Assembly (NCBI GenBank): GCA_013697635.1
Contig: JACCWM010000064.1
Span: 1-40,169 of the forward strand
DNA from: Lujinxingiaceae bacterium
GTDB lineage: Bacteria; Myxococcota_A; Bradymonadia; Bradymonadales; Bradymonadaceae
Direction of reading: 5' to 3'
DNA: 40,169 bases
Part shown: positions 12,577 through 18,919 of the stretch, piece by piece
Numbering within the stretch: position 1 is the stretch's first letter
Layout of the letters: the number at the start of each line of letters is the position of its first letter
Notes under the pieces: model-generated
Database searches by the model: none
What the model saw: the letters and a program-made list of their open reading frames with translations, nothing else
What the model was told of the DNA's origin: nothing
Program-made: the position numbers and the translations under genes

Positions 12577-15500
12577 TTAGCGGGGATCGGCCAGATTGCG
12601 CACGCGCTGGACGCTGAGCTCGAGCATGAGCTGGTCTTGAATCTGGGCGATTTGGGCGAGCTCGAGTTGCTCCTGGGCGCTGATCACGTCGAGCTGGGTG
12701 GCGACGCCGTGGCGGTAGGCGGTCTGGGCCTGGTTGAGCGCGAAGGCGGCGAGCTCGATCTCGGACTGGCCCGACTCGATCTGGCTCTGGGCGGCTAAAA
12801 ATTCCGCCCAGGCTTGCTCGATGCCCGAGGTGATCTGGTGGATCGACTGGCGTCGGCGGATGTCGACGGCCAGCAGTTGGGCGCGGCGCTGGTCGATCTC
12901 GGCGCCGCGCATGCCGCCGTCCCACAGTATCCACTCGGCGCCAAAGATGATCATCCAACGCGGGTCTCCCGGGCTGAGCAGGGAGCCGCGCGAGCCCGAG
13001 TAGCTGGCCGTGGCGGTAAATGCCGGCAGGTAGCGCCAGTAGACCTCCTCGAGGGCGAGCCGTGCCACGTCGCGCTGTGCGGCATTGGCCGCCAAGACGG
13101 CGCGGTTTTGTTCGGCCATGGCTACAAGCCCCTCGGGATCGGAAGGCGCTTTCAAGGGCTCGGGGCTGACGACGTCGAAGTCCGAGGGGATCTGAAGCAG
13201 CTCGGCTGCCGCCGCGCGCACCTGCACGAACTGCAGGCGCGCGCGCTCGACGCTCTTTTCGGCCTGCACGACGCGCAGCCGCGCGCGCGTGAGCTCGAAT
13301 TCGGTGGCCGTGTCGGCCGCGCGCCTGGCCTCGGTGGCCCGAAGCATCGTGCGGTTGCTCTCGAGCTGCTGCACGGAGAGGTCGATGAGCCGGCGCACGC
13401 TCAAGACATTGTAGTAGACGCTGATCACGGCCGAGTCGAGGTTCTCGCGCACCAGATCGACCTGCACGCGTGCCAGATCCCGCTGGGCGTAGGCTTGCTG
13501 GATGAGCGGATAGGAGCGAAAGTTCGCGCGCAGCGAAGCGCTGATCGTCCAGCGATAGTCCGTGCGCGGCTGCACGACGATCTCGGGCGCGCCCGGCGCC
13601 GGTGCAAAGGTGATCTCGTCCTGGTTGATCGTGTACGAGCCGCTGGCCACCACGCTGGGGTGAAGCGCGCCCCAGGCCTGGCGGATCACGCCCTCGGCGA
13701 TCTCGATCTGGGTTTCGGCCAACTGGACGTCATAGCTCTGCTCGCGCACGAGCTGTCGGGCCTGCTCGAGCGTGACCACGCGCGTTGCGCCGAGCTCGAC
13801 GTGTACTTTTCCAGGCGAGCTCAGCGCATCGCCGGGCTTGGGCAAGAGCGGCTGCTCTTGTTCGAGCGGCGCCTTGGCACCTTCATCGGGCACGATCTGG
13901 GCCTGGGCCAGCATCGGCAGGCCCATGCACAAGAAGACGATCGCGCTTGCTCCAACCAAGCGAACAACCATGCGCCGGCTGACAGAGGAGATCTCGTCGA
14001 ACAGCGAGTAGAGCACGGGCACGATGATCAGCGTGAGCGCGGTCGAGACGATCAGCCCGCCGGAGACCACGCGCGCCATCTGGCCCCACATCTCCGCTGA
14101 GCTGCCACCGTAGACGATCTGGCGATTGACGAAGTCGACGCTCACGCCGATGACCAGCGGCACCAGGCCGAGCACGGTGGTGATCGCGGTGAGCAAGACC
14201 GGGCGAAAGCGCACCATGCCCGCCAAAATGACGGCGTCGCGGCGCTCATAACCGCGGGCACGCAGCCGGTTGATATAATCGATCAGAACGATCGCGTTGT
14301 TCACCACGACGCCCGCCAAACTGATCACGGCGATGCCCGTCATGATGATGCCAAAGGCCTCTCCGGTCAGAATCAATACCCAGAGCACGCCGATCAAGCT
14401 CAAGAGCACGCTGCACAAGATGATCAGCGGCTGGGTGATCGAGTTGAACTCGGTCACCAGAATCAACAGGATCAAGAACAGTGCCGTGAGCAGTGCCTTG
14501 GCCAAGAAGCTCGCGGCCTCGTTTTGGTCCTCGCTCTCGCCGGTGTAGCGAATGACGTAGCCTGCGGGCAGCTGCAAATCGAGCAGATTCTTTTGAACCT
14601 CCTCGAGCAACTTGGCCGGCAAATAGCCGTCGGCGGCGTTGGCCGTGACCTTGACCACGCGCTCCTGGTCTTTTCGGCGCACGGAACCCGCGCCGCCCAA
14701 GATCTCGACCGTGGCGATCTCGATCAGGGGAATATGGAGGTTATCCTTGTTGACGATCGTCAGGCTGTTGATGTCGGAGATCTCGTGGCGGCGATCCTCG
14801 GGAAGGCGCACGACGATGTCGTACTCGTCATCGCCTTCGCGATAGTTGCTGGCCTTGGTGCCGTTGATTGCGGTGCGCACGGTCTGAGCGATCGAGTGTG
14901 TGCTCAGCCCGGCCGTGGCGGCCTTTTGTCGATCGACGACGACGTGGATCTCCGGGCGGCTGAGCTCGATGTCGTCCTTGAGATCGATGATGCCCTCGAT
15001 CGGGCGGATTTTCTCGCGCACTTCGCGGGCGATGCGGCCGAGTTCGCGCAGTTCGGGGCCGGCGATCTCGACGCTGACCGGCGCGCCGCTGGGTGGGCCC
15101 ATGCTCTGGCGGTTCAAGATGATCGTCGCGCCCGGGATCGGCGCAAAGAAGTCTCGAAGGCTGTCCATGAAGGCGTAGGGGTCGCTGGTTTGTTTGCCGT
15201 TCTCGACGAGCTCAACGGTGATCTGGCCGTAGTGCGGCGCCTCGCCGCCGCCGCCGGCTTGGCCGCCACCTTGGACGCCGCCATCGGTGATCCAGGCCGT
15301 AACGAGCTCCGGGGCACTGTCGAGCGGCGCCTGCATGCGCTCGAGCACTTCGCTGGTTGCAGCCAGGCTGCTGCCGTCGGGCATTTGCACGCTGATGTTG
15401 AACTGCTCGGGGGTGGTCTGGGGAAAGAACTCCACACCGCGCGAAGTCTTGGCGAAGACCACGAAGGTCATCACAAGCGCGCCACCGGCCAGAAAAACGA

Positions 15501-17106
15501 CGAGCACGCGCTGGTTGAGGCAAAAGACCAGCGTGGCCTTGTAGGCCCGGTACAAGACGTTGTCCGGGACGGCCACCTCGGAGAAGGTGACGCCTTCGCG
15601 CACCTTCAAGAAGGCCGCGCACAGCGTTGGGTTGATGATCAGCGCGACAAAGAGGCTGGCCAAGAGCGTAATGATTACGGTTTTGGGCAAAAACCCCATG
15701 AACTTGCCGGTAACGCCCGGCCAGAACAGCATCGGTGCAAAGGCTGCCACCGTGGTCGCCGTCGAGGCGATAACCGCCCAACCCACCTCGGTGGTGCCGT
15801 CGAGCGCCGCCTGAACGCGGTCTTTTCCCTCGCTGGCGTGGCGGTAGATGTTCTCGACAATCACGATCGCGTTGTCGACGAGCATGCCCAGCGCGAGCAC
15901 CAGCGAGAAGAGCACGACCATGTTGAGCGTGATGCCCATCATCGAGAGCACGATGAAGGTGATCAGCATCGAGAGCGGCACGCTCACGGCGACAAAGAGC
16001 GCGTTTCTCGCACCGCCCATGAAGAAGAACAAGACGCCGAGCACGAGGATCAAGCCCGAGATGATGTTGTTCTCCAGCTCGTGAACGCGGGCCTGGATCT
16101 GGACCGACATGTCGTTGACGATCGTGATGTTGACGCTGTCGCCGGCGGCCTGATCGTAGCGCGCGATCACCTGCTTGGCCTCCTGGGCTATCGAGATGAT
16201 GTTCGAGCCGGCGCGCTTGACGATCGAGAGCGAGACGTTGGGTCGGGTGGTCAGCTCGCGCCGGCCGTCCTCATAGGTCGTCCAGGTGGTCAGCCGGCTA
16301 AAGGTAGTGGGCTCTTTGAAGCTGTCGATCACATCGGCCACGTCGCGCAGATAGACGGCGTTGCCATCGGGCGCCTTGACCACGATGTTGCGAATCGTCT
16401 CCATGTCACGAAACTCGCCGGCGACGCGCACGATGTACTTCATCGAGCCGATGTCGAGGCTGCCGCCGGGCAGGTTGATGTTCTCGGTCTGGATGGCCGT
16501 GATCACCTCGTTGACCGAGGCGCCGCGGTGGCGCAGCTTGTCGGGATCGACGGCGATCTGGATCTCGCGCTCGATGCCACCGGCCAAGCCCACGCGCAGC
16601 ACGCCGGTCACGCTCTCGAGCTCGTCTTGCATCTGCTCGGCCAGATCCTTGAGGCGCAGCAGATCGAGATCTCCGGAGACGTTGGCGATCAAGATCGGCC
16701 AGTCGCTGGCGTTGATCTCGATGATCTCGGTCTCCTCGGCGTCGGGCGGCAAATCGGGCTTGGCCTTGTCGACCTGAACGCGGATGCGCTGCAGCGCCTC
16801 GTCGATGTCGACGTCGGGCTCGAACTCCAGGGTGATCAGCGAGACGCTCTCGGCCGAGGTGCTGTTCATGCGCTTCAAGTTTCGAAGGCTCTTGAACTTC
16901 TTCTCCAGCGGCCGGGTCACGAGCATCTCGATGTCGACCGGTGAGACGCCAAAATAGGGCGTGCTCACGATCACCACCGGAATGGCAATGTCCGGCGCGG
17001 CCTCGCGAGGCAGCGAGAAATAGCTGATCAGCCCGCCGATGACGAGCGTCACGATCAGCACGTAGACCGACATGGAATGTTCAATGGCGAAGCGCGTCAG
17101 TTTCAT
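12577..17106 (-). CDS. RND multidrug efflux pump fused to a TolC-like outer membrane factor (1509 aa)
   Basis: Residues 1 to about 1040 are a complete RND transporter of the AcrB/MdtB (HAE) type. They include the N-terminal TM1, the periplasmic porter with PREAAPDIAIP, the TM4 proton-relay region LGMLVDNAIVIVENIYRH (about residue 405-420), the repeated second half, and the usual RND end VPVLYSLFDE. The frame then continues without a stop into MVVRLVGASAIVFLCMGLPM-LAQAQ (from Met1046), a segment that looks like a signal peptide. A full OEP/TolC domain follows (about 1085-1509; LEQARQLVREQSYDVQLAETQ, and a C-terminal coiled-coil repeat). Since RND C-termini are cytoplasmic, this extra hydrophobic segment would pass the OMF into the periplasm. 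No Shine-Dalgarno precedes codon 1046, so internal initiation is not favoured. CusA/CzcA-TolC fusions are known in Bacteroidetes. AGGA precedes ATG 17106. The adaptor gene is 20 bp upstream. Confidence 0.93.
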   Translation of the reverse strand: MKLTRFAIEHSMSVYVLIVTLVIGGLISYFSLPREAAPDIAIPVVIVSTPYFGVSPVDIEMLVTRPLEKKFKSLRNLKRMNSTSAESVSLITLEFEPDVDIDEALQRIRVQVDKAKPDLPPDAEETEIIEINASDWPILIANVSGDLDLLRLKDLAEQMQDELESVTGVLRVGLAGGIEREIQIAVDPDKLRHRGASVNEVITAIQTENINLPGGSLDIGSMKYIVRVAGEFRDMETIRNIVVKAPDGNAVYLRDVADVIDSFKEPTTFSRLTTWTTYEDGRRELTTRPNVSLSIVKRAGSNIISIAQEAKQVIARYDQAAGDSVNITIVNDMSVQIQARVHELENNIISGLILVLGVLFFFMGGARNALFVAVSVPLSMLITFIVLSMMGITLNMVVLFSLVLALGMLVDNAIVIVENIYRHASEGKDRVQAALDGTTEVGWAVIASTATTVAAFAPMLFWPGVTGKFMGFLPKTVIITLLASLFVALIINPTLCAAFLKVREGVTFSEVAVPDNVLYRAYKATLVFCLNQRVLVVFLAGGALVMTFVVFAKTSRGVEFFPQTTPEQFNISVQMPDGSSLAATSEVLERMQAPLDSAPELVTAWITDGGVQGGGQAGGGGEAPHYGQITVELVENGKQTSDPYAFMDSLRDFFAPIPGATIILNRQSMGPPSGAPVSVEIAGPELRELGRIAREVREKIRPIEGIIDLKDDIELSRPEIHVVVDRQKAATAGLSTHSIAQTVRTAINGTKASNYREGDDEYDIVVRLPEDRRHEISDINSLTIVNKDNLHIPLIEIATVEILGGAGSVRRKDQERVVKVTANAADGYLPAKLLEEVQKNLLDLQLPAGYVIRYTGESEDQNEAASFLAKALLTALFLILLILVTEFNSITQPLIILCSVLLSLIGVLWVLILTGEAFGIIMTGIAVISLAGVVVNNAIVLIDYINRLRARGYERRDAVILAGMVRFRPVLLTAITTVLGLVPLVIGVSVDFVNRQIVYGGSSAEMWGQMARVVSGGLIVSTALTLIIVPVLYSLFDEISSVSRRMVVRLVGASAIVFLCMGLPMLAQAQIVPDEGAKAPLEQEQPLLPKPGDALSSPGKVHVELGATRVVTLEQARQLVREQSYDVQLAETQIEIAEGVIRQAWGALHPSVVASGSYTINQDEITFAPAPGAPEIVVQPRTDYRWTISASLRANFRSYPLIQQAYAQRDLARVQVDLVRENLDSAVISVYYNVLSVRRLIDLSVQQLESNRTMLRATEARRAADTATEFELTRARLRVVQAEKSVERARLQFVQVRAAAAELLQIPSDFDVVSPEPLKAPSDPEGLVAMAEQNRAVLAANAAQRDVARLALEEVYWRYLPAFTATASYSGSRGSLLSPGDPRWMIIFGAEWILWDGGMRGAEIDQRRAQLLAVDIRRRQSIHQITSGIEQAWAEFLAAQSQIESGQSEIELAAFALNQAQTAYRHGVATQLDVISAQEQLELAQIAQIQDQLMLELSVQRVRNLADPR

Positions 17107-17126: not shown

Positions 17127-18212
17127 TTAGTTCTGCTGGAGTTCTTGGACGACTTCGATGCGGCTGCCGGCGACGAGCCCGCGGTGCCCACGGGTGATCA
17201 GCTGATCGCCCTCGACCAGGCCCTCGCTAACGAGCACCAACGCCCCGCTGCCAGGGCCCAGCTCGACCTTTCGCAACTCGGCGCGGCGAATGCCCTCGTC
17301 GGTGTTGCTCACCACCATGGCCTCGCGCGAGCTGAAGCCCTCGAGGATCGCTTCGCGCGGGACCATGATGACGTCGTTGAATTCCTTTCGCGTCACGAAC
17401 ATGCGCGTGCGCATACCGGGCAAGATGCTCAGATCTTCGTTGGCGATGTGGATCTCGACGGGGTAGGTGAACGACGGGCTGTGTGCCAAAATCCCCACGC
17501 GCTTGACGCTGCCCTCAAAGGAGCGGCCCAGCGCCGGGATCTCGATCGTCAGCGTCTCATCGCGCCGAATGTGCTGGATCTGAGACTCCGGCACCTGGGC
17601 CTGCACGACGATCGTGTCGTAGACGACGATCTCGGCCAGCGCCGCGCCAGGGCTCGCGTATTCGCCCTGATCGACGTTCTTTTTGGCGACATAGCCGCTG
17701 ATCGGGCTGGTTACTGTCGTCTTGGAAAGGCCCAACTCGGCCTGGCGCAAGTTGAGCTGTGCCGTCTCGAGAGTGGATTCAGCCTGATCGAGCTGCTGCG
17801 GCGTGGCCAGACCATCTTTTTGAAGGCGCTCGAGGCGAGCGAGCTCGCGCTTGGAGGTGGCGATCTGGCTCTTGAGCAGCTCGATGCGTGCAGCATCGAT
17901 GCGCCCGTCCACGCGGTAGAGCAGCGCGCCGCGCTTGATCGTCTGGCCTTCGCTAAAGGGCGCGGCGACGACCATGCCCGGCGTATCAGCCGAGATGCGC
18001 ACCGATTCCAGAGGCTCGGTTCGCCCGATCACCTCGAAGGTATCGACAAAGCGCGTACTCTTGATGACCAGCGTGGCCACAGGCACCGGCGCCACCAAAG
18101 GAGCGCTCTTGGCCTCCCTGGATGTCGGAGACCCGCTGGCCTCGTTTTGACAGCCGGCTGCGCCGAGTGCGAGCAAAATAGCTCCTCCGATCATGGCGTA
18201 GCGTATTCTCAT
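17127..18212 (-). CDS. RND efflux periplasmic adaptor (membrane fusion lipoprotein)
   Basis: A 361-aa HlyD/AcrA-type membrane fusion protein that links the inner membrane pump to the outer membrane channel. The signal ends in lipobox LGAAGC with lipid-anchor Cys21. The order is: first barrel/lipoyl half (VRISADTPGMVVAAPFSEGQ), a coiled-coil hairpin of about 65 residues (IELLKSQIATSKRELARLERL ... LDQAESTLETAQLNLRQAEL), second lipoyl half (SPISGYVAKKNVDQGEYASPG), beta-barrel and membrane-proximal domains. The start ATG overlaps the TetR stop by 4 bp (ATGA, 18209-18212), so translation is coupled. It is the partner of the downstream RND-TolC fusion. Confidence 0.95.
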   Translation of the reverse strand: MRIRYAMIGGAILLALGAAGCQNEASGSPTSREAKSAPLVAPVPVATLVIKSTRFVDTFEVIGRTEPLESVRISADTPGMVVAAPFSEGQTIKRGALLYRVDGRIDAARIELLKSQIATSKRELARLERLQKDGLATPQQLDQAESTLETAQLNLRQAELGLSKTTVTSPISGYVAKKNVDQGEYASPGAALAEIVVYDTIVVQAQVPESQIQHIRRDETLTIEIPALGRSFEGSVKRVGILAHSPSFTYPVEIHIANEDLSILPGMRTRMFVTRKEFNDVIMVPREAILEGFSSREAMVVSNTDEGIRRAELRKVELGPGSGALVLVSEGLVEGDQLITRGHRGLVAGSRIEVVQELQQN

Positions 18213-18919
18213 AGAGACTCCTTACTCTCGAGCTTTCCCGCGCCTGCGAGAAAGAAATAGACGAGGCGATCGAGCGCCTCCTCACTCAAATAATTTTGTG
18301 TGCAATAAGCTTGAGCCTCTTCGCTGTCGGCGCACTCGACGAGCTTGAGCACGTGCATGAGGTGGTTGTTGATCATCCCCATCAACTGCTCGGTCAAAAA
18401 CAAGGTCGTAAAGCCCGGATGAGGCTCGAACTCGCCGCTGGCGATCGCCTCATCGAACATCTTGTAGACGCGCGCCATCATCGCCTCATGAGAGCAGATG
18501 ATGTTGAAGGTCGGCCGGCTCTGCTCGGGCCCGAAGATCACCGAGTAAATGAACTGCAAGGTCAAAGGCGCACGCCGGGCGCCATCGATATGGGCCCAGG
18601 CAATCGCGCGCACCTTGGCGGGCAAGTCTTTGGCCCCGTCAATGCACGTCTCGATGCGCGTCTGCATCGACGAAAACAAAAAGTCGATGAGCTTTAAGAA
18701 CACGCCCTCTTTGCTCTCGAAGTAATAATAGAGCATGGGGTTGGTGATGTTGGCCTCCTGGACGATCTCGCGCACGCTGGTGGCGGCGTAGCCTTTGCGC
18801 GCAAAGAGCTCGAGGGCGGCCTGCATGATGCGTGCGGCCATCTCCGGGATGCCTGCCTCGATGAAGGCAGGTACCAGGTCGCCGTTGGGCGGCTCGGTGC
18901 TTAAAAGACTCTCAGACAT
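18209..18919 (-). CDS. TetR/AcrR family transcriptional regulator of the efflux operon
   Basis: A 236-aa protein with a typical TetR N-terminal helix-turn-helix at about residues 30-80: ALELFARKGYAATSVREIV, followed by ITNPMLYYYFESKEGVF. The C-terminal helical part would bind a drug-like ligand. It is the first gene of the efflux operon and overlaps the adaptor gene by 4 bp. Two palindromic sites lie 27-60 bp before its start, so it most likely represses its own operon and is released by pump substrates. That mode is inferred from the family and the operator position. The ribosome site is weak. Confidence 0.94.
   Translation of the reverse strand: MSESLLSTEPPNGDLVPAFIEAGIPEMAARIMQAALELFARKGYAATSVREIVQEANITNPMLYYYFESKEGVFLKLIDFLFSSMQTRIETCIDGAKDLPAKVRAIAWAHIDGARRAPLTLQFIYSVIFGPEQSRPTFNIICSHEAMMARVYKMFDEAIASGEFEPHPGFTTLFLTEQLMGMINNHLMHVLKLVECADSEEAQAYCTQNYLSEEALDRLVYFFLAGAGKLESKESL

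Follow-up and report, generated by a model that had tools for sequence, protein, structure and literature searches.

The fused gene and its neighbours

The window, i.e., the whole stretch of 40,169 nucleotides that was analysed, carries on its minus strand a gene in which an RND pump is continued by a TolC-like outer-membrane channel (Table 1). The frame running from 17106 to 12577 comprises 1509 codons with an ATG start and no internal stops. The sequence-only reading of this DNA had described an unbroken frame passing from a complete RND transporter into a complete OEP/TolC domain, and this is borne out by both the ORF and Pfam: the ACR_tran match covers residues 4-1036 (E 6e-220, 733 bits against a cut-off of 28), and two OEP repeats reach residue 1501 (E 5e-42).

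None of the named NCBIfam pump subfamilies (HAE, CusA/CzcA) scored over its curated cut-off for the window pump. The best match was RND_permease_2 with 603 bits against a cut-off of 1250, and CusA/CzcA scored 428 bits against 701. The pump can fairly be described as HAE-leaning yet outside the named NCBIfam subfamilies, thus the earlier label "HAE-like" agrees with the leaning of the scores, while no subfamily cut-off is reached. At the proton-relay positions, comparison with AcrB by eye places D411-N412 in helix 4 (window 15871-15876) opposite D407 and D408, and N936-N937 in helix 10 (window 14296-14301) opposite K940, leaving one Asp only and no Lys.

The OEP part was modelled by AlphaFold as a TolC fold with the helix and strand order of TolC (mean pLDDT 83); in the modelled piece, residues 1-60 are disordered. 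Foldseek matched this model to E. coli TolC 1ek9 (E 8e-19, 422 columns), and further to OprM, OprN, and CusC. The model of the pump with helix 13 is of low confidence beyond residue ~1040; it draws helix 13 as a continuation of helix 12 and holds no packing information. The lipoprotein adaptor (RND_mfp score 193 bits against a cut-off of 95) and the TetR regulator that had been said to accompany the pump are both present upstream of the fused gene. In the relatives examined, the adaptor gene likewise lies 5' of the fused gene, and most of them show a TetR-like frame.

Table 1. Features of the fused gene and the genes upstream of it (window positions).
Feature	Position	Strand	Basis or remark
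Whole fused gene	12577..17106	(-)	RND pump, putative internal signal peptide and TolC-like channel, 1509 aa
Stop codon of the fused gene	12577-12579	(-)	ATG start at the 17106 end
RND pump part, residues 1-1041	13984..17106	(-)	ACR_tran; nearest solved structures MexK, MdtB
Basic stretch RRMVVR, residues 1044-1049	13960..13977	(-)	Resembles a signal peptide n-region
Helix 13 / putative internal signal peptide, residues 1050-1069, LVGASAIVFLCMGLPMLAQA	13900..13959	(-)	Family alignment, cleavage scores
Fast-changing acidic linker (residues 1070-1110), predicted to begin the mature channel	13777..13899	(-)	Alignment; disordered in the model
TolC/OEP outer-membrane channel domain, residues 1111-1509	12580..13776	(-)	Pfam OEP, AlphaFold, Foldseek
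Lipoprotein periplasmic adaptor (RND_mfp), lipobox LGAAGC	17127..18212	(-)	TIGR01730 over cut-off
TetR-family regulator	18209..18919	(-)	ATGA overlap with the adaptor start

Distribution and origin of the fusion

A close homologue occurs in 18 of 21 same-family genomes (no homologue of the fused gene was found in G001, G007, and G012), and all 18 have one open frame across the joint. Full-length family homologues are 54-64% identical to the window protein; the homologue of G019 lies on an N-terminally truncated contig. The same architecture was found in dozens more genomes of the phylum, close relatives being present in 76 of the 379 sampled. In the sister family, G022 and G024 are fused and G021 and G023 have adjacent separate genes, while the G025 locus ends soon after the pump and was placed in neither state. 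Separate genes are thus confined to the sister family and more distant relatives, as is expected of an ancestral split pair. According to the sequence-only reading, a close relative in which pump and channel are separate genes, with a ribosome site ahead of codon 1046, would speak against it, and no such case was found within the family. In a FastTree tree of 96 pumps with 48 fused rows, six changes between fused and not fused are needed, five of them on well supported branches, gains and losses being indistinguishable in this tree. At the level of sequence, the fusion is conserved, old, and recurs across Myxococcota with at least 5-6 state changes.

In split relatives, the channel gene lies directly 3' of the pump gene and carries its own signal peptide. 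It overlaps the pump stop by ATGA at six loci, five of them distinct (L022, L033 = L078, L079, L081, and L086), and follows the pump after gaps of 9-62 bases at L075, L082, L091, L094, L116, L124, and L131, with a Shine-Dalgarno-like sequence ahead of the channel start in most split loci. The motif QSSKL ends, or sits near the end of, the split pumps L075 and L076, and in the fused L074 the same pump tail continues directly into the signal peptide. Since adjacent split channel genes carry their own signal peptide, helix 13 is best read as a retained one: it is most likely the signal peptide of the channel, kept when the intergenic stop was lost. At the level of sequence, the loci show an origin from adjacent genes: two neighbouring or overlapping genes would have lost the stop that parted them.

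The genome of the window contains a second fusion of 1479 aa (L009:5029-9465 (-), contig C76), 28% identical to the first, with the joint PASATA/QDG (the slash marks the predicted cut) and a 5-aa linker. Adaptor and TetR genes lie next to it in L009. The close relatives of this second fused family (P0002) in G002, G014, and G020 are pumps alone, with no channel gene directly downstream. In relatives of the second pump that have no fused channel, the pump is followed not by a channel gene but, on its own strand, by a small gene (L138, 3400-4047; L139, 4683-5315; L140, 4701-5339) encoding a putative lipoprotein that ends in CTSCHGQFRFP or CAGCHGQFRFP (CxxCH, haem-binding-like).

Outside Myxococcota, one fused RND-OEP protein, L145, with the joint GALHA/QVTEKISLEK, was found in a Bacteroidetes genome. 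Other close pumps found in Bacteroidetes are split, so this fusion looks local. For the earlier statement that similar fusions of CusA/CzcA are known in Bacteroidetes, no confirmation was found in the literature searched, L145 being the one fused RND-OEP protein found there. In a Lentisphaerae genome, an AcrB-like pump and an OprM-like channel are fused (L144:972-5468 (+)), with a lipoprotein signal, LLTGC/INIGPN (slash after the Cys), as the joint. Each of the 12 fused proteins examined in the phylum of that genome (L152-L160, L182, L185, and L186) has a lipobox-like stretch with Cys at its joint, and further joint lipoboxes in this phylum read FFGGC/LTVGPDY and CCSGC/KSMAPDY.

The joint and the proposed precursor

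The 13th hydrophobic helix ends in P-M-L-A-Q-A/Q, and a linker of ~41 aa precedes the channel domain. The predicted signal peptidase I cut falls after A1069, between window positions 13900 and 13899. Aligned without anchoring on the cleavage motif, the 18 family members have R or K at position 1044 in 13 and at 1045 in 16, P1064 in all 18, A, G or S at 1069 (-1) in 16, and Gln at 1070 (+1) in 14, and the linker that follows is gap-rich. With a basic n-region, a hydrophobic core, and small residues at -3 and -1, the joint looks like a signal peptidase I substrate. Gln1070 (window 13897-13899) after the predicted cut recalls the Q-rule, which is reported for signal peptidase I substrates of Bacteroidetes (PMC5837995).

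Helix 13 ends in a strict AxA motif in 41 of 50 fused proteins, which share kinship and do not represent 41 independent events, and such a motif follows the six other out-facing pump helices in 0, 0, 3, 2, 0, and 2 of 48-50. This control superseded a null obtained by shuffling the Ala-rich joint, a weak one (40 observed against 27 expected). The median best-site cleavage score was 6.38 for fused joints, 6.21 for the signal peptides of split channels, and -0.9 to 2.6 for control helices, the matrix serving as a relative scale only. Most of the nine fused proteins lacking a strict AxA carry a tolerated variant (e.g., VRA, LQA, ASG); L112 and L104 have low scores and L080 has no good site. The proposal of a signal-peptide-like hydrophobic joint with a cleavage site and the argument that a 13th helix solves the topology of channel export both hold.

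The distance from the predicted cut site to the first channel helix has a median of 3.5 aa; it is at most 10 aa in 29 of 50 fused proteins and zero in several, as in PAPAQA/VTLEEAW and PSAHA/ITLEEAW, and reaches about 70 aa in some relatives. A stretched residue spans about 0.35 nm. The channel of known tripartite pumps is kept well clear of the inner membrane by the pump head and the adaptor. Given this distance, a linker of 10 aa or less would leave an uncut protein unable to place its channel in the outer membrane. The 41-aa linker of the window protein, fully stretched, measures ~14 nm and is not too short by itself. A type II signal, as found in the L144 lineage, is sensible only if its Cys is lipidated and becomes a new N-terminus, thus this lineage independently supports cutting.

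We consider it very probable that the gene encodes a precursor of pump, channel signal peptide, and channel, which would be cut by signal peptidase I and would fix a 1:1 supply of the two parts. The pump would insert into the inner membrane during synthesis of the precursor, and the retained signal peptide would follow as a 13th helix (N-in, C-out) and carry the channel part through the membrane. Cleavage by signal peptidase I would fall after A1067-Q-A1069, leaving helix 13 with the pump, and the freed channel with the N-terminus Q1070 would move to the outer membrane. There we infer that it assembles with the pump and with the lipoprotein adaptor, the product of a separate upstream gene, into a machine that would export its substrate. 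A single gene would set pump to channel at 1:1, i.e., 3:3 in the assembled machine. The likely gain is an equal supply of both parts; after use, the signal peptide would stay in the pump as its helix 13.

The sequence-only reading had left it undecided whether the product stays fused or is cut. Its second option is favoured by the conserved AxA, the near-zero linkers, and the lipobox lineage, and the same comparison speaks against the first, in which helix 13 would serve as an ordinary membrane anchor, with the channel tethered by the linker in a permanently joined two-membrane machine. Helix 13 puts the C-terminal part in the periplasm, so a fused topology is possible, and the acidic, disordered linkers of the window protein and of the relatives with the longest ones are in keeping with a tether. 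However, AxA is kept although the linker is hypervariable, the 0-6 aa that separate channel helix 1 from the site in many relatives cannot reach the position of an outer-membrane channel, and lipobox fusions would be lipidated at Cys and cut. We regard an uncut protein as unlikely.

Separate translation of the channel from an internal start before helix 13, with an incidental long read-through form, is less probable still. An in-frame ATG precedes helix 13 in 17 of 50 fused genes, including that of the window, but is lacking in the other 33, and a start codon with a Shine-Dalgarno-like sequence is found there in only 6 of 50, so that an internal start at Met1046 was rejected as a general rule. 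Moreover, no stop stands ahead of Met1046, and the long form would still be made. The residue given in the sequence-only reading as the beginning of the hydrophobic segment does lie just before the helix, but it is not conserved, is not preceded by a Shine-Dalgarno-like sequence, and is not a start codon. A stop codon deleted by a sequencing or assembly error, for which the split gene pairs of the sister family could be invoked, can practically be dismissed, as the joint DNA, read across for a lost stop (...SSVSRRMVVRLVGASAIVFLCMGLPMLAQAQIVPDEG...), is free of stop codons and the same-family orthologues (18/18), along with dozens more in the phylum, are fused as well.

Meaning and comparison with known systems

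The pump and the channel of a tripartite system are usually seen as parts that are synthesised separately and then meet. If a precursor cut by signal peptidase exists, it would fix both the pump to channel ratio and the choice of partner, and a beta-barrel channel would be delivered from the tail of an inner-membrane protein. Database entries for pump-channel "fusion proteins" would then probably stand for two mature proteins, and type I and type II signals would both work more than 1000 residues from the protein start. It seems about an even bet that joining an RND pump to its channel through the export signal of the channel is a general strategy, arisen several times (in at least two pump families of Myxococcota, once in Bacteroidetes, and once, by way of a lipoprotein signal, in the phylum to which the Lentisphaerae genome belongs), yielding a polyprotein that spans the envelope, fixes a 1:1 supply, and turns the used signal peptide into a working 13th helix of the mature pump.

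The architecture itself is probably not new; domain databases list ACR_tran+OEP architectures. In the open-access papers searched, including the accessible part of one major review, neither a natural RND-OMF fusion nor a cleaved RND-OMF precursor was found described, and the conserved, convergent internal cleavage signal appears to be undescribed in the same literature.

The locus resembles MexAB-OprM, AcrAB-TolC, MexJK, and MdtABC in its RND pump, lipoprotein adaptor, TolC-fold channel, and adjacent TetR gene, and among solved pumps the window pump is closest in sequence to MexK and MdtB. It differs from these systems in that pump and channel form one gene and one precursor, and in the extra 13th helix, the putative signal peptide of the channel. 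L144 with its relatives and L145 likewise have ACR_tran and OEP in a single frame with the export signal of the channel kept, but their pumps are of other classes, and the L144 lineage has a type II lipoprotein signal instead of AxA. A single helix beside a 12-helix pump is also known from AcrZ, a small helix bound to AcrB, whereas helix 13 is covalently attached. In Bradyrhizobium japonicum, the cytochrome b/c1 precursor (fbcH) is a membrane protein processed by signal peptidase at an internal signal peptide. As in our proposal, this signal peptide stands between a multi-span inner-membrane protein and an exported partner, the two becoming subunits of one complex; in fbcH the partner remains at the inner membrane, whereas here an outer-membrane channel would be released.
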